Below, one piece after another: positions 22,331-55,100 of a stretch of DNA of 64,000 nucleotides. Made by a program: the position numbers and the translations under genes. The DNA lies in NCBI GenBank assembly GCA_039908345.1, contig JAMOBD010000002.1:1-64000 (forward strand). The letters run 5' to 3'. The stretch is from Magnetospirillum sp. WYHS-4 (lineage in GTDB: Bacteria; Pseudomonadota; Alphaproteobacteria; Rhodospirillales; GLO-3). How positions within the stretch are numbered: the first letter of the stretch is position 1; every line of letters starts with the position of its first letter. Below the pieces are notes generated by a model, which searched no databases, was not told the origin of the DNA, and saw nothing but the letters and a program-made list of their open reading frames with translations.

Positions 22331-23218
22331 CTAGAGCGCGTTGACATTCAGCGGGTCCAGATAAAGGCACTGACCAGGGAGAGGATGGACAGGAAGGCCC
22401 TTGGGGTCTGTTCGTAGCGGGTAGCGATGCGTCGGAAGTGCTTGATTTTGAGTAAGAACCGCTCGACGAGGTTGCGCTCGCAATAGAGGGCGTAGTCGCA
22501 GGGAACCTGGGGCGAGGTCTTTCTGGGCGGGATGACCGGAACGGCCTCCTGGGCTCGGATGGCGTCGCGGAAATCGGCGGAATCGTAGCCCTTGTCGCCG
22601 AGAACGTATCCAGCGGGAAGATCGACGATCAGGGGCTTGGCCTGGGTGAAGTCGCTGACCTGCCCCGGCACCCACTCGTGCGTCGAGCCGTCCTGGTGCA
22701 GCATCATGCCGGGCAGGGCGCGCCGCTCCCGCTTGCGCCGGTGCGCCCCGCGCCGGGAAGCCTTGGCCTTGCGGCCCTGGGCCTGGAGCGCCAGCCGCGT
22801 CCAGTTGTAGCTGTGCGGAAATCCGTGCTCCGCCACCAGCTTCTCGTGGAAATGCTTGACTGTGAAATCCCAATACCGCGTGTCGTACAACTCCAGCATC
22901 CCCATCACCCGGTCCACCGGAACTCGACGGGCCGATATCTTGCCCAGCCGGCCGTCAAGAAGGCCTTCCGCCCCCTCCGCCTCGTACCGGTCCCGCCAGC
23001 GCCGGAACGTCCGCTCGCTCATCCCCAGAACCTCCGCCGCCTCCGCCTGACGCAACTCCCGCCGCTCCACGCGGCCGTAAATCTCCGCGAACTTCATTCG
23101 CCGTATCCCTTGCAACACCTCCGTCCGTCTCATCGCCGGCCCCCTTCCTTGGACGGCCGACTTAAACCGGACAGATCACGTGTTACCTACGGCGGTCATA
23201 TCATCTGTTAGCGACACA
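22331..23218 (-). mobile_element. composite IS remnant: ISNCY-type left part fused to IS5-type right part
   Basis: The block between the DUF2892 gene and the DGQHR gene. Its right edge carries two similar motifs, TAACAGATGATATGACC and TAACACGTGATCTGTCC (minus strand), that look like transposase-binding repeats of an ISNCY-type element. Its left edge (CTAGAGCGCGTTGACATTC) looks like an IS5-group end. No matching terminal inverted repeats bound the whole, so it is probably not mobile as a unit. Edges are approximate. Confidence 0.6.
22348..23133 (-). CDS. chimeric transposase: ISNCY N-terminus, IS5 C-terminus
   Basis: An uninterrupted 261-aa frame of two unrelated parts. Residues 1 to about 152 match ISNCY-type transposases: helix-turn-helix AEAAEVLGMSERTFRRWRDR, then FTVKHFHEKLVAEHG and LPGMMLHQDGS. 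From about 155 it becomes the end of an IS5-group transposase: GQVSDFTQAKPLIVDLPAGY, GDKGYDS, PPRK, and the Y-R-K-type ending ERNLVERFLLKIKHFRRIA. The join falls near WVPGQ, a dipeptide shared by both. Each part lacks the other's catalytic residues, so activity is unlikely. The frame is intact, so the fusion could be recent or could yield a stable protein. Confidence 0.75.
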   Translation of the reverse strand: MRRTEVLQGIRRMKFAEIYGRVERRELRQAEAAEVLGMSERTFRRWRDRYEAEGAEGLLDGRLGKISARRVPVDRVMGMLELYDTRYWDFTVKHFHEKLVAEHGFPHSYNWTRLALQAQGRKAKASRRGAHRRKRERRALPGMMLHQDGSTHEWVPGQVSDFTQAKPLIVDLPAGYVLGDKGYDSADFRDAIRAQEAVPVIPPRKTSPQVPCDYALYCERNLVERFLLKIKHFRRIATRYEQTPRAFLSILSLVSAFIWTR

Positions 23219-27650: not shown

Positions 27651-29045
27651 ATGGGTTGGCGGGGGGCATTGATCGGCGGCGTTGCGTCCGTGGCTCTGCT
27701 GGGGCCGGGATGGGCCTGGGCGCAATCCCTGGAGGAAGCACTCGTTTCGGCCTACGCCAACAATCCCACCTTGCAGGCCCAGCGCGCCAAGGTGAGGTCC
27801 ACGGATGAAGGCGTGCCGCAAGCGTTGGCCAACTGGCGTCCCAAGATTTCCGTCGATGGCAGCGTCGCCAGCCAAGCCTATTACAACTACGCCGCCACCG
27901 CGGGAACCACCGCCTACGGCCAGCATCGGGACCCGAAGTCGGTCGGCGCCAGCCTGACCCAATCCCTTTTTCGCGGCTTCCGCACCCTCAACGAGACGGA
28001 TCGTGCCGAACTGAAGGTGCTGGCGGAACGGGCCCGGCTGGCTTCCACCGAACAGGACATCCTGAGCAAGGCGGCGACGTCTTACCTGGATGTGGTGCGC
28101 GAGCAGGCCACATTGGAACTCAATCGCGGTAACGAACAGGTGCTGCGCCGCCAACTCGAAGCCGCGCGCGACCGCTTCCGGGTCGGCGAGATTACCCGCA
28201 CCGACGTCCATCAGGCGGAAGCCCGTGTCGCCAAGGCGCAGGCGGATCGCATCCAGGCGGAAAACAATTTGGAAGCCTCGCGGGCGACCTACGCCAACTA
28301 TGTCGGCGAGGCAGCCGGAAAGTTGGCTCGCCCCGGCATGCCGACCGATCTTCCCGTCAGCAAGGACGAGGCACTCAAGGTCGCGACGGTTGCCTATCCC
28401 CTGGTCCAGGCAGCGGAACTCGATTCGGCCGCCTCCGACAAGTATGTCGACGTGGTGCGGGGCGAACTGATGCCCAGTCTCGATTTGTCGGCCAAGGCCA
28501 GCAAGGACTACGACTCTTCGGCCGAAGACAATCGCATCAACACCCTGGAAGGCAAGCTGACCCTCACGGTTCCCCTCTACGAGAAGGGGTCCGTTTATTC
28601 CCGCCTGCGCGAAGCCAAGCAACTCGCCGCTCAGGATCGCCACAAGACCGACAAGGAACGTCGCGACGCGCGGGAAAAGGCCGTCCGCGCTTGGGAACAG
28701 CTTGAGTCGGCCAGGGCCCGCGTCGATTCCTATGGCGCCCAGATCCGGGCCTCCGAGATTGCACTGGAAGGCGTGGAAAAGGAAGCTGCCGTCGGTTCGC
28801 GCACCGTTCTTGATGTTCTGGACGCCGAACAGGAAGTCCTGGATGCCAAGGTCAACTTGGTGAAGGCCCAGCGTGACGAACTGGTGGCCATCTTCGACCT
28901 CAAGGCCGCCATGGGGCAATTGACGGCAGAAAAGCTCAACCTGCGTGCCGCCATCTACAATCCGCTGGCCCATTACAACGAAGTCAGGGATAAGTGGTTC
29001 GGCGGATCGAGTTCCGGCGACATCAGCGACAAACCGGTCAAATAG
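27651..29045 (+). CDS. tolC: TolC-family outer membrane channel
   Basis: 464 aa with a signal peptide (GALIGGVASVALLGPGWAWA, cut before QSLEEAL). The mature protein has the repeated helical-barrel pattern: SLEEALVSAYANNPTLQAQR, SQTLFRGFRT-like (SLTQSLFRGFRTLNE) and the second-half motif VGSRTVLDVLDAEQE. It forms the trimeric exit duct for type I secretion and RND pumps and could serve both systems in this window, neither of which has its own channel gene. The start was chosen at the signal peptide with GGAG about 11 nt upstream. Confidence 0.9.
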   Translation: MGWRGALIGGVASVALLGPGWAWAQSLEEALVSAYANNPTLQAQRAKVRSTDEGVPQALANWRPKISVDGSVASQAYYNYAATAGTTAYGQHRDPKSVGASLTQSLFRGFRTLNETDRAELKVLAERARLASTEQDILSKAATSYLDVVREQATLELNRGNEQVLRRQLEAARDRFRVGEITRTDVHQAEARVAKAQADRIQAENNLEASRATYANYVGEAAGKLARPGMPTDLPVSKDEALKVATVAYPLVQAAELDSAASDKYVDVVRGELMPSLDLSAKASKDYDSSAEDNRINTLEGKLTLTVPLYEKGSVYSRLREAKQLAAQDRHKTDKERRDAREKAVRAWEQLESARARVDSYGAQIRASEIALEGVEKEAAVGSRTVLDVLDAEQEVLDAKVNLVKAQRDELVAIFDLKAAMGQLTAEKLNLRAAIYNPLAHYNEVRDKWFGGSSSGDISDKPVK

Positions 29046-29143
29046 TAGGGGGGAAGACTGGATCAGGCGTTTGCGGCACGGGCGATCTGTTGTACCGTAT
29101 CGCGACAGCCCACCTGGGGGGCGGCCGGCCAGCCACGGAATCG

Positions 29144-29893
29144 ATGATCGACAAGGCGGGACAAACCAACGGCGAAGCAGATGGAGGGCAAGAGCCCTCG
29201 ATGGAGGATATTCTCGCCTCCATCCGCCGTATTCTGGCCGAAGACACCGAAGAGGAGCCGAAGGCTCCTCCTCCTCCACCGCCTCCGCCGCCGCCGCCGC
29301 CTCCTCCACCGCCTCCGCCGCCGGAACCGGAAGAGGAAGAACTCGACATGGCTGCGGCCATGGCGCAGATGGCGGCTGAAATTCAGCCGGAACCTGAGCC
29401 GGAGCCTGAGCCACTTCCGGAACCTGAGCCCGAGCCGCTCATTGAGCTGATGGAGCCAGAGCCAGAGCCGGTATTCGTGCCTCCTCCGCCTCCGCCTCCG
29501 CCTCCGCCGCCTCCGCCGCCGCCTCCGCCTCCGCCTCCGCCGCCTCCTCCGCCGCCGGCCTTCGTCATGCCGGTGGAGCCAGAGGATATCCTGGAATTGA
29601 CGGCAGCCATGGTAGCCGCGCCCGAGCCCATGGCGATGCCCCACATCATGTCGGAAACCACCGCCAAGCGGTCGACCGACGTGTTGTCGGACTTGGCCAA
29701 GGCGATCCTGAATCAGCGCGACCTTGCCATCAATGCCGGCAAGGAAGGCGTCACCCTCGAGGGGATCGTCCGCGAGATGCTGCGGCCCATGCTCAAGGAA
29801 TGGCTGGACCGCAACCTGCCCTATCTCATCGAGCGGTTGGTGAAGAAGGAAATCGACCGCATGATTAACCGGGCGGAGCGCCTGGAGGAATAA
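29144..29893 (+). CDS. popZ: PopZ polar organizing protein (DUF2497)
   Basis: 249 aa. The N-terminus has the conserved PopZ helix (SMEDILASIRRILAED). The C-terminal 75 residues are the oligomerisation domain (LSDLAKAILNQRDLAI...MLRPMLKEWLDRNLP...LVKKEIDRMINR). Between them lies an acidic, Pro-rich linker with one run of 19 prolines (codons at 29267-29323) and one of 26 (29480-29557), plus EP repeats. PopZ forms condensates at the cell pole and tethers ParB/centromere and cell-cycle regulators. The start was chosen because it opens the conserved N-terminal helix. The stop codon coincides with the first base of a dispersed repeat. Confidence 0.9.
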   Translation: MIDKAGQTNGEADGGQEPSMEDILASIRRILAEDTEEEPKAPPPPPPPPPPPPPPPPPPPEPEEEELDMAAAMAQMAAEIQPEPEPEPEPLPEPEPEPLIELMEPEPEPVFVPPPPPPPPPPPPPPPPPPPPPPPPPPAFVMPVEPEDILELTAAMVAAPEPMAMPHIMSETTAKRSTDVLSDLAKAILNQRDLAINAGKEGVTLEGIVREMLRPMLKEWLDRNLPYLIERLVKKEIDRMINRAERLEE

Positions 29894-30029
29894 TACCGGC
29901 TCCCCCTCGAAATGATCGTTGGCCGGTATCGAGCGGCCATTGCGGCCGCGGCCAAGCCGCCAAAGGCGGCGCCCGGCAAGGGACAAGAAAGAATATACCA
30001 GCCGGTCAAGTCATTGGCCGGTTGGAATG
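29891..30029 (+). repeat. dispersed repeat, copy A
   Basis: Starts at the popZ stop codon (TAA-TACCGGC). An inverted pair ATACCGGC/GCCGGTAT (29893-29900, 29922-29929) opens it. The body CGTTGGCCGGTATCGAGCGG, then CCATTGCGGCCGCGGCCAAG, ends near AAGTCATTGGCCGGTTGG. The same order of blocks occurs at 49.75-49.89 kb on the other strand, with divergence in the middle. It fills the gap before the convergent GGDEF gene. Confidence 0.75.
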
Positions 30030-30066
30030 ATGCCTCCCGCTCCGGTCGGAACGACGCGTCGGCGGA

Positions 30067-49691: not shown

Positions 49692-49752
49692 AGGCCCCTC
49701 CCTCCATTGGAAGTCCCTCCCCGACCGCTTCGCCGATACGCCTGTCCCCTGT

Positions 49753-49892
49753 CATGCCAACCGGCCAATGACTTGGCCGATGGGTATCTTTATTCTTGGC
49801 CCTCGCCGGGCGCTCGCTCCGCTCGCTTGGCCGCGGCCTCAATGGCCGCTCGATACCGGCCAACGAATCCGTTCGAGTGTTGGCCGGTATCA
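49753..49892 (-). repeat. dispersed repeat, copy B
   Basis: Begins at the pccB stop codon (TGA-TACCGGCCA) and runs on the minus strand. It opens with a perfect 12-bp inverted repeat GATACCGGCCAA/TTGGCCGGTATC (49852-49863 and 49880-49891) around a 16-nt loop, which could fold as a hairpin at the end of the pccB mRNA. The rest matches copy A at 29.9 kb block by block, ending in AAGTCATTGGCCGGTTGGCATG. Confidence 0.75.
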
Positions 49893-51422
49893 CAGGGGGA
49901 TGTTCCCGTGCTTCTTCCACGGATTCTTCAGTTCCTTGTTTTTGAGCATGCGCAAGCTGCGGCAGATGCGCAGGCGCGTGCTGTGCGGCATGACGACGTC
50001 GTCGATGAACCCGCGATGGCCGACGATGAAGGGATTGGCGAAGCGCTGGCGATATTCCTCGGTGCGCTCGGCGATCTTGGCGGGATCGCCGATGTCGCCG
50101 CGGAAGATGATCTCCACCGCGCCCTTGGGGCCCATCACCGCGATTTCGGCCGAGGGCCAGGCGAAATTGACGTCGCCACGCAGGTGCTTGGAACTCATCA
50201 CGTCGTAGGCGCCGCCGTAGGCCTTGCGGGTAATCAGGGTGACCTTGGGCACGGTGGCTTCCGCGTAGGCATAAAGCAGCTTGGCGCCATGCTTGATGAT
50301 GCCGCCGTATTCCTGGGCGGTGCCGGGCAGGAATCCGGGCACGTCGACGAAGGTGACGATGGGGATGTTGAAGGCGTCGCAGAAGCGCACGAAGCGCGCC
50401 GCCTTGGTCGAGGAATCGATATCCAGGCAGCCGGCCAGCACCATGGGCTGATTGGCGACGATGCCCACCGTCGAGCCTTCCATGCGGCCGAATCCGACGA
50501 CGATGTTGCCGGCGTAGCCGGGCATCAATTCGAAGAAGTCGCCTTCGTCCACGACCTTGAGGATCAGTTCCTTCATGTCGTAAGGCTTGTTGGGATTGTC
50601 GGGAATCAAGGTATCCAGCGACATCTCCACCCGGTCGGCGGCGTCCTCGGTGGGCCGGAGGGGCGGCTTCTCGCGGTTGTTGGCGGGCAGGAAGTCGACG
50701 AAGCGGCGAAGATAAAGCAACGCCTCGATGTCGTTGGCGAACGCCCGGTCGGCGACGCCGGACTTGGTCGTATGGGTGATGGCGCCGCCCAGTTGCTCGT
50801 GGGTCACCTCCTCGTGGGTCACGGTCTTGACCACGTCCGGGCCGGTGACGAACATGTAGGAGGTGTCTTCGACCATGAAGATGAAGTCGGTCATGGCCGG
50901 GGAATAGACCGCACCGCCGGCGCAGGGCCCCATGACGATGGAAATCTGCGGAATGACGCCGGAAGCGACGACGTTGCGCTGGAACACCTCGGCATAACCG
51001 GCCAACGAAGCGACTCCTTCCTGGATGCGGGCACCGCCGGAATCGTTGAGCCCCACCACGGGGGCCCCGACCTTCATCGCCTGGTCCATGATCTTACAGA
51101 TCTTCTCGGCGTGGGACTCGGACAGCGAACCGCCCAGCACGGTGAAATCCTGGCTGAAGACGAAGACCAGCCGGCCGTTGACCGTGCCGTAGCCGGTCAC
51201 CACGCCATCGCCGGGAATGCTCTTGCTTTCCATGCCGAAGTCGCGGCAGCGATGCTCGACGAACATGTCCCATTCCTCGAAGGAGCCGGGATCGAGAAAG
51301 ACCTCGATACGCTCGCGGGCCGTCAGCTTGCCCTTGGCATGCTGGGCATCGATGTATTTCTGGCCGCCGCCTTTCCGAGCCAGGGTACGCTTCTCGTCCA
51401 GTTGCCGAATGATGTCGTGCAT
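49890..51422 (-). CDS. pccB: propionyl-CoA carboxylase, carboxyltransferase subunit
   Basis: A 510-aa beta subunit that moves the carboxyl from biotin to propionyl-CoA. The family start [20 protein letters not shown], acyl-CoA site [49 protein letters not shown] and the C-terminal KKHGNIPL are all present, so it is complete. Its stop codon coincides with the first bases of repeat copy B. No gene, RNA or repeat is visible in the 51423-51722 gap upstream. Confidence 0.95.
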
Positions 51423-52157: not shown

Positions 52158-55100
52158 AGCCGATCCAGAGAAGACGGAATCGGCTCTCCATTCTGCCTTT
52201 GGCCGCCCGCCCTCCGGGCGGAGCGATAGTTGGCGTCCAGGCGGGGGGCGAGCAGGAGAAGGGCGGCGATGCGCCGGACCATGGCGCTCACCTCTCGGGC
52301 CTCGTCGGGGATGAGCGGCCGGCCCAGCAGGGTCTCCTCGCGGTAGGACAGCCACTTCTTGACCACCTGGTAGCCGCCCAGGGTGTAGGACCAAACCGGT
52401 TCGGGCACACCCTGCCAGACGGCCATGTCGTTCAGGTGGACGTCGCGGCAGGTCTCGCCCAGCAGAAGGATGGCGGAACCCAGGGCTTCCCTTTCGGCCG
52501 CGGACCAGGGGCGGGCGACGCTGCGGCCGGGACCCGGCATGCAGACTCCGTCCTGTCCGGCCACCCCCCAGCGCGCGCGGAGCGCCAGATCGCCAGGCCC
52601 CAAGGACCGCCCTGACCCATCCGCCGCCGCCACCAGGCCCAGGACCCGCAGGGGCGGCCGGGCCAGGCCGGGCAGCGCCGCTTCCGGATCGAGCAAGGCC
52701 GCCACCTCCCGCCCCAACGCCGCCGAATCCTCCAGACCGGCGCGGCAGGAAGGCAGGGGGATGCGGGGCCAGTCGAGGCGGGCGCCGTCGGAATTCTCCG
52801 CCTCGTAACCGGGCGCGTGCAGGACCGCCACGATATGGTGGAACAGATCTTCCGGTTTCGCTTCCAGATCGGCCAGATAGCGGGCCGCCATGGCCGACAG
52901 GTTGGGCGCCGCTTCACCGTCCAGCAAGGATTTTTCCTCGTCGCCTCTCAGATAGAGAGGGAAATAGCTGCCGCCCCGCTCCATCACATGCAGAGACCCG
53001 AGATGGCGGGCCACAAAAGGCGCGGGCTTCTCCCGCCGGGCCTGCTGGATACTGCAAAGCCAAAGGTTGGAGGCCCGCAGTTGGCGGACGTACTCGCTTC
53101 GCTTCCGGTCCAGCAAGTCGGTGTCGGGGTCCCAGTAGAGCCAGCGCCTGTCGAAGGGCCGGTACCAATAGCGGACGATGGCGCCGCCATGCCAGGCGGT
53201 TCCCGGATGGTTGGAAAAATACTCGGTTCGCTTCTCGTCGAGCAGCTTGGTGTCGGGGTCCCAGTAGAGCCAGCGATTGTCGAAAGGCCTGTAGGCGTAC
53301 CGGACGACGGCGCCGCCATCCCGCCCCCGCCGGAGAAGAAAGTCCCTGGTATCCCTGGCCTTGAAACGCCCGGTATCCTTCATGACCTGCGGGTGGAGGC
53401 GGGCCACTTCCTCGTGGGTCAGGGTCGGATCGAAGTACTGGTTCAGGCGGCGTTCCAACTGGGAACGGTCGATGGCAACCAGGAACTGATCCCGACTGGT
53501 CTTCACCCCTGGAAACGACACCGGCAAGAGGTCGGTGAGCAGGGGCCAGCGGAAGTATTCGGGGGCGGCGGCGGTGGGCTGGAAGGGCAGGCCCAGTTCG
53601 AGGACCGGCGCCACCGGGGTGTAGAGGCTCCGGCCGTCGCGCTCGGCGCCGGACGCCAGGTCCCGGCGCTTGTCCTTGCCCCAGAAATGGCGGAACAGCA
53701 CTTCCGCCGAACCGGACGGCCCGCCTTCCGGGCGTTTCTTCCGCACCATCGTCGCGATGGCCGTGCCCACCTGGATGCCTTCGCGGTTGAGATCGGTCGA
53801 AAAGATGCTGGGATCGGGCCGGCCGTCGGGGGTCAGCTTGCCGGTGCGGTACTTGTCGCCGTTCAGGCAGTCGATGCGGATGGAATCGAACGCCTCCAGG
53901 AAGCGTTCCCGCATCCCCGTGTAGGACAGCCCGTCCAGCCAGGAGTAGTTGGAAATCAGGCAGACCACCCCTTCGCCCGTCGCCTCGACGATGCGCCGTT
54001 CGGCCATACGGAAGAAGCGGACGTAAAGATCGTTCAATCCCTGCCCTTCCGGCCGGCGCACCCGGCGGGTGGTCCGGTAGGCCTCGCCCAGGGCCATTTC
54101 CTCGTCCATCGCCGCCCCGGCGAAGCCGTTGTAGGGCGGGTTGCCGATCACCACCAGAACCGGCTTCTCCCGCTTCACCCGATGGGCCCCATCCCGTTCG
54201 TTCTGCAACTCGGGAAAAGGCAGGGACCATTTGTCCCGCTCCGCCTCCTCCCACCCCGTCAGCGCGTTGGTCAGATAGAGCGCGAGCCGCGCCGGCTGGC
54301 CGTTCTGCCGGTCCTCCCAGCCGGCCAGCGACACCCCCTCGCCCTCCAGGAACAGGAGGCTCTGCAGGTAGGCCACCACGTAGGGCGCCGGCAGGATTTC
54401 GAAGCCGACCAGGCGTTCCGTCGCCGCCTTCTGCAGATCCGCCCGGATCAGGGCGTCGCCGTGCTTCGCCTTGAGCCCGTCGCGGATGCGCCTGAGCACC
54501 CCCATCAGGAACGATCCCGTCCCGGCGCAAGGGTCCAGCACGTAGACCCGTTCGTCCGCCAGCCCGTCGGCGATCCCCAGGTCTTCGCGCAACGCCCTGT
54601 CCACGCGGGCCACCATGTAGTCCACGACCTCGGGCGGCGTGTACCAAACCCCCAGGTCCTTGCGCAGGCCGGGATCGAAGGCTTCCAGGAACGGTTCGTA
54701 GAAATAGGGGACCGCGTGTTCCTCGTCGAAGACCTTGAAGAAGGCGTCCTGGTCGATGCGGCGCAGCACCCCGGCGGCGCAGGACAGCAACTCGAACATC
54801 CGCAAGGGGCCCAGGTTGCCCGGACTTCTCGCCTGCTCGAACAGCACGCCCAGGGCGGGCAGGCGATCCATCTGCCAGCTGGCCGAACCGGCGGTGAAGC
54901 TGGTCGGCACGAAGTGGTATTCGTCGGCGATCAGTTCGGGCACGATCTTGCCCGCCTCGCCCTCTTCCGCCTTCAGCCGCCAGCGCCGCCACCACAGCAC
55001 CCACGACGAGAACAGCCCGTAGAACAGGGTCTGCACATAGGTGGAATGGAAGAAATGCCGGCCCTTCTCGCCCTCGAAGCGCATGCCCAGGGTTTCTTCC

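Follow-up and report, generated by a model that had tools for sequence, protein, structure and literature searches.

Among described systems, the MITEs with TA duplication, i.e. ERIC, RUP and Correia/NEMIS (PMC2229807), resemble the element reported here in being short, non-coding, hairpin-forming and multicopy intergenic, with inverted ends and a target-site duplication. GTAG/CGTC-tagged REPs likewise lie directly behind coding regions, and GTAG REP ends often supply the TAG stop of flanking ORFs (PMC3733652). BOX of Streptococcus pneumoniae provides a further case of genes ending inside a repeat: 36 pneumococcal genes end in a BOX that encodes the stop, without evident truncation (PMC3049150). 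The overlap of repeats and stop codons is already a known tendency in these two systems. The nearest alphaproteobacterial parallel in shape is the CIR repeat of Caulobacter and Brucella (PMC2229807, section 7), which is about 110 bp long and consists of two hairpin arms and a linker with TA ends. We found no literature on Magnetospirillum repeats.

The window, i.e. the whole stretch of 64,000 nucleotides of Magnetospirillum sp. WYHS-4 that was analysed, contains two copies of the present element, A behind popZ and B behind pccB:

28994..29893, plus strand: popZ (Pfam DUF2497, complete to position 74 of 75)
29891-30030, plus strand: copy A, whole, both repeats included; its sequence ends in GGAA and then the second T-N-A
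29891..29893, plus strand: copy A, left target-site repeat TAA, the popZ stop (sequence; PopZ of genome G001 has the same last residue)
29894..29930, plus strand: copy A, left terminal hairpin TACCGGC...GCCGGTA (sequence, alignment, folding)
29933..29982, plus strand: copy A, conserved covarying core GCGGCC-ATTGC-GGCCGC, GGCCAAG, GCCGCC-AAA-GGCGGC, CGCCCGGCAAGGG (alignment A1; covariation in 36 relatives)
29994..30027, plus strand: copy A, right terminal hairpin TACCAGCCGG...CCGGTTGGAA (sequence, alignment)
30028..30030, plus strand: copy A, right target-site repeat TGA, differing in one base from TAA on the left (sequence)
49890..51422, minus strand: pccB (carboxyl transferase, domain positions 2-493 of 493; relatives end in KHGNIPL and the stop)
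49752-49892, minus strand: copy B, whole, both repeats included (sequence)
49890..49892, minus strand: copy B, left target-site repeat TGA, the pccB stop (sequence)
49850..49889, minus strand: copy B, left terminal hairpin TACCGGCCAAC...GTTGGCCGGTA (sequence, alignment, folding)
49800..49849, minus strand: copy B, conserved core (alignment, core pattern)
49755..49790, minus strand: copy B, right terminal hairpin, ending in GGCA (sequence, alignment)
49752..49754, minus strand: copy B, right target-site repeat TGA (sequence)

The first-pass annotation had placed the starts of the two copies at TAA-TACCGGC on the popZ stop and at TGA-TACCGGCC on the pccB stop, and both were confirmed on re-reading. 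The common blocks that it described align over 115 nt with 83% identity, in inverted orientation. Its left boundary of copy A at 29891 is correct, but the copy extends to 30030 and not to 30029. The hairpin that it saw just 3' of the coding region was confirmed (folding energy of the consensus element -79 kcal/mol, z = -7.6). The repeat and the hairpin on the right side had gone unnoticed, as had the conserved core. The shared block CGTTGGCCGGTATCGAGCGG is present twice in the window as compared to 0.02 expected. A search of the 3.65-Mb draft genome for the same block, allowing up to 3 mismatches, gave 22 matches, and the reversed control gave none. By a covariance model (R1, built from 13 full copies) and a scan for ends, the total in this genome is about 25, remnants included, i.e. 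the element is not confined to the two copies first seen. Two other repetitive features were found in the window: a proline codon repeat tract (CCG/CCT) within popZ at 29249-29558, and a 103-nt direct repeat (83% identical, spacing 129) in a long gene at 53091-53322.

The element is about 134 bp long and runs from a left hairpin beginning with TACC through a conserved core to a right hairpin ending with GGTA. The consensus order is T-N-A, the left hairpin TACCGGCCAAC...GTTGGCCGGTA, the core, a purine-rich stretch, the right hairpin TACCAACCGG...CCGGTTGGTA and T-N-A; the consensus core reads GCGGCC-ATTGA-GGCCGC, GGCCAAG, a variable stem and CGCCCGGCGAGGG. The terminal sequences TACC...GGTA are inverted, and each end folds as a hairpin of its own. 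In this respect the element differs from ERIC, RUP and Correia/NEMIS, i.e. each terminal arm is its own hairpin and a covarying core joins the two. The length of the core differs among the copies, out of frame. A coding reading of the core (AAIEAAAKRAERAPGEGQ followed by a stop) was rejected, since the copy lengths would shift the frame. In the variable stem, the frequent variant GCGAGC-GGA-GCGAGC of this genome (G000) pairs incompletely, and its adjacent G-A/A-G mismatches might be sheared pairs.

The copies are flanked by matching 3-bp T-N-A repeats (TGA/TGA, TAA/TAA, TCA/TCA, TTA/TTA). The middle base agrees between left and right in 16 of 17 pairs in the genome and in 22 of 26 pairs in relatives, which over all 43 pairs corresponds to a permutation p of about 5e-6; the repeats of copy A are unequal (TAA left, TGA right). 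Where relatives lack the insert, the corresponding position holds a single native stop codon. For a TAA copy (L266 in G184) the corresponding site of G212 (L302) has a single TAA, and for a TGA copy (L275 in G175) those of G184 (L300) and G212 (L296) have a single TGA. Insertion at T-N-A with duplication, with the native stops preserved, is therefore shown directly. With a short, non-coding and multicopy sequence, inverted ends, duplications and empty sites, the element has the properties of a MITE, and it differs from ERIC, RUP and Correia/NEMIS (PMC2229807) in that three bases, T-N-A, are duplicated. The REP-like identity proposed by the first-pass annotation did not hold up, as the genome has no RAYT-type Y1 transposase (PF01797: 0 matches, controls positive) and 3-bp duplications are found instead. 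Unlike GTAG/CGTC REPs (PMC3733652), the element has TACC ends, carries no GTAG/CGTC tag at the foot of a 20-40 bp palindrome, is several times longer, has target-site duplications and resides in a genome without Y1 (RAYT).

The position of the copies relative to stop codons was tabulated genome-wide. Placement is far from random, as 19 of the 23 copies with a readable boundary adjoin a stop codon exactly, as compared to 17% expected. This expectation is drawn from the one 64-kb window of the draft genome, where 38 T-N-A stop sites stand against 191 other non-coding T-N-A sites, with genes called by our own codon model trained on the window. The enrichment has p of about 7e-12 (9e-10 with the count restricted to TGA/TCA sites), and stops are preferred about fivefold over other intergenic T-N-A sites. 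Removing the two copies found solely via the end pattern (L334 and L338) leaves 17 of 21 at stops; two of the 19 placements depend on short ORFs (L027, L334). Beyond the 19, two copies that lost the left arm (L036, L045) nevertheless begin at a TGA stop. Of the four non-stop copies, L032, L034 and L052 are located 16 to 34 nt past a stop; the fourth is L038. In terms of orientation, 17 of the 19 are sense and two (L024, L026, both TCA...TCA) antisense (p = 7e-4). Exact placement in stop codons is a further difference from ERIC, RUP and Correia/NEMIS. At one locus (L338; G000:C47:26837-27073) hemB converges with a phosphofructokinase-like gene; either gene has a copy at its stop codon, and between the two copies a terminator-like hairpin is intact.

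The stops used are 17 TGA and 2 TAA. TAG is never used although it accounts for 17 of the 57 stops of the window, so the placement rule is T-N-A and not "stop codon". Copies at stop codons also occur in relatives from the magnetotactic-bacteria group. There, at least 20 of 56 scanned rows of this type (type 1) lie at stops against a null of 14.5%; among the 56 are rows with incomplete ends, elements of another type and a small number of loci listed more than once, hence the fraction is rough and probably low. Sense and antisense copies number 13 and 7 in relatives, with no significant bias. Magnetospirillum relatives also contain a second type, TA-GAGC...GCTC-TA, which has other hairpins around the same core and duplicates TA. 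It is found at TAA/TAG stops in 27 of 59 copies, in either orientation, as compared to a null of 7%.

We note that type 2 itself supplies the G of TAG, so that truncation of the host genes had to be excluded via empty sites. The corresponding explanation, namely that the genes were trimmed and owe their stop codon to the element, also draws on two convergent genes (L035, L331) that enter the right end from the opposite strand and finish in IPTGQ and the stop. Against it, searches with the joined flanks of type 2 copies gave empty sites with native stops (L071, L268) and a native TGA (L066), and the type 1 empty sites above hold native stops as well. As the first-pass annotation had stated, PopZ and PccB end normally: PopZ has an identical end residue in G001, the only genome of the same family, and PccB ends in KHGNIPL in three relatives from the order, in which a further reading frame comes after the stop and the element is absent. 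The Pfam domains of both proteins are complete to the C-terminus. Trimming is refuted for both window copies, and we regard it as extremely improbable in general. The situation is also distinct from BOX (PMC3049150), where host and element are unrelated to the present ones and the repeat encodes the stop; here the stop is the duplicated target. Element-encoded tails, IPTGQ or PPGQ, are carried by the opposite-strand genes at L331, L035 and L334.

At the other end, the right junction GGTA-TGA contains an ATG. The downstream gene starts at this ATG at two loci (L025, L031), and the downstream start at L192 was probably regenerated in the same way. The joined flanks of L025 would read GTGA, i.e. 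an overlapping stop/start pair.

The explanation that we consider likely is that the element is a small mobile MITE whose T-N-A duplication regenerates the stop codon, and that survivors are seen at stops through loss elsewhere. The small non-autonomous element at gene ends suggested by the first-pass annotation is supported. Since TGA and TAA stops are T-N-A, the duplicated target re-creates the stop and the element starts exactly there. A transposase acting in trans, presumably of the DDE type, would insert the element at T-N-A and duplicate the three bases; at a TGA or TAA stop, the upstream gene would keep its stop before the element and a second copy would lie behind it. As GGTA-TGA re-creates an ATG, overlapping stop/start pairs could also survive, with two clear loci and a third likely one. 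Insertions elsewhere in the gene-dense genome would mostly be lost, whereas those at stops probably persist because they are harmless, and hairpins and core would then ride in the 3' end of the mRNA.

As regards the source of the transposase, none of the four DDE_Tnp_1 genes of the draft genome has the ends of the element, i.e. no autonomous element with these ends was found at the DDE_Tnp_1 loci checked. Transposases of the IS4/IS5 type were rejected as a source as their ends do not match. One DDE_Tnp_1 transposase-like gene lies in the window itself, at 22348-23133, without ends matching the element. L052 was considered as the left end of an autonomous element and rejected, its neighbours being only EamA-like and amidase-like genes and no transposase.

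Besides the lack of a matching transposase and the unequal repeats of copy A, two observations weigh against this explanation. Given the fivefold excess at stops, and given that all non-stop copies but L038 are found less than 35 nt past a stop, simple tolerance of intergenic insertion by itself is not enough. The sense bias of this genome (17:2), which relatives do not share (13:7), is not predicted by a pure neutral filter. The excess and the bias leave room for active targeting or for a role as RNA. It is conceivable, although we lean against it, that the insertion machinery itself prefers gene 3' ends or stops, e.g. via transcription-linked single-stranded DNA, so that selection would not be needed. 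The fivefold excess over other intergenic T-N-A sites, the copies lying just past stops and the sense bias all fit this, but the avoidance of TAG by type 1 and the use of TA-containing stops by type 2 argue that stops as such are not recognised, and relatives have no significant sense bias.

That the element is kept as a 3'-UTR RNA, whose hairpins would shield the end of the transcript or delay ribosomes as they reach the stop codon, appears unlikely to us, even though the hairpin is very stable with the stop codon forming part of its base, the copies are biased to the sense strand in this genome, the core covaries and ERIC elements are known to alter how stable the mRNA upstream of them is (PMC2229807). 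In relatives the antisense orientation is common, close species lack the element at several of the sites, and copies undergo decay. A function as an intrinsic transcription terminator, which the first-pass annotation had raised as a possibility and which the hairpin directly 3' of the coding region would suggest, is very improbable: in copies A and B the stem has no T-tract following it, a terminator-like site is absent from copy A and from the inside of element B, and at hemB a hairpin with a T-rich tail sits intact outside the element.

Of 297 genomes of the order, 45 have the core pattern, and almost all of these belong to the Magnetospirillum/Phaeospirillum/Telmatospirillum family; a class-wide sample of 385 genomes gave no exact match outside this order. 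This confinement is a difference from CIR. A possible likeness to CIR is that most copies of this genome have GANTC close to the left loop; in relatives it occurs in 8 of 28 copies with 4.2 expected, i.e. it does not seem to be general. In most G000 copies this GANTC (a CcrM site) is at the same left-loop position, with exchange between GACTC and GATTC; in copy B the left loop has GATTC at window positions 49865-49869, minus strand.

Among 36 distinct cores, 97.4% of the cells pair, and cells changed on both sides number 68 as compared to 18.6 in shuffles; shifting the partner abolishes the signal. This covariation shows the formation of a hairpin, which may be as RNA or as single-stranded DNA. 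With the Rfam 15 covariance models no relevant match was obtained up to E = 1, and in the papers searched the core sequence had no match in bacteria. In Magnetospirillum relatives, the core is repeated in tandem, head to tail, at L115, L193 and L209, either by itself or together with a short spacer. A bare core precedes apparently the same gene at the same place in two species (L094, L103), which suggests a conserved role there. It is possible, and we say so only tentatively, that in the core we are dealing with a hitherto undescribed module of Rhodospirillales, a structured RNA or a single-stranded DNA, which has its own selected function and is carried on T-N-A and TA mobile ends and also found alone, in tandem arrays and before genes.

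As far as the literature searched shows, these families, the duplication-based reason with its empty sites and the common core are new. The finding gives a simple and testable reason why small bacterial repeats frequently start right at stops, namely that the duplicated target is the stop. Two types with different targets follow the same rule with different stops, which comes close to a natural control experiment. The covarying core, absent from Rfam, makes a subject worth studying in Magnetospirillum.
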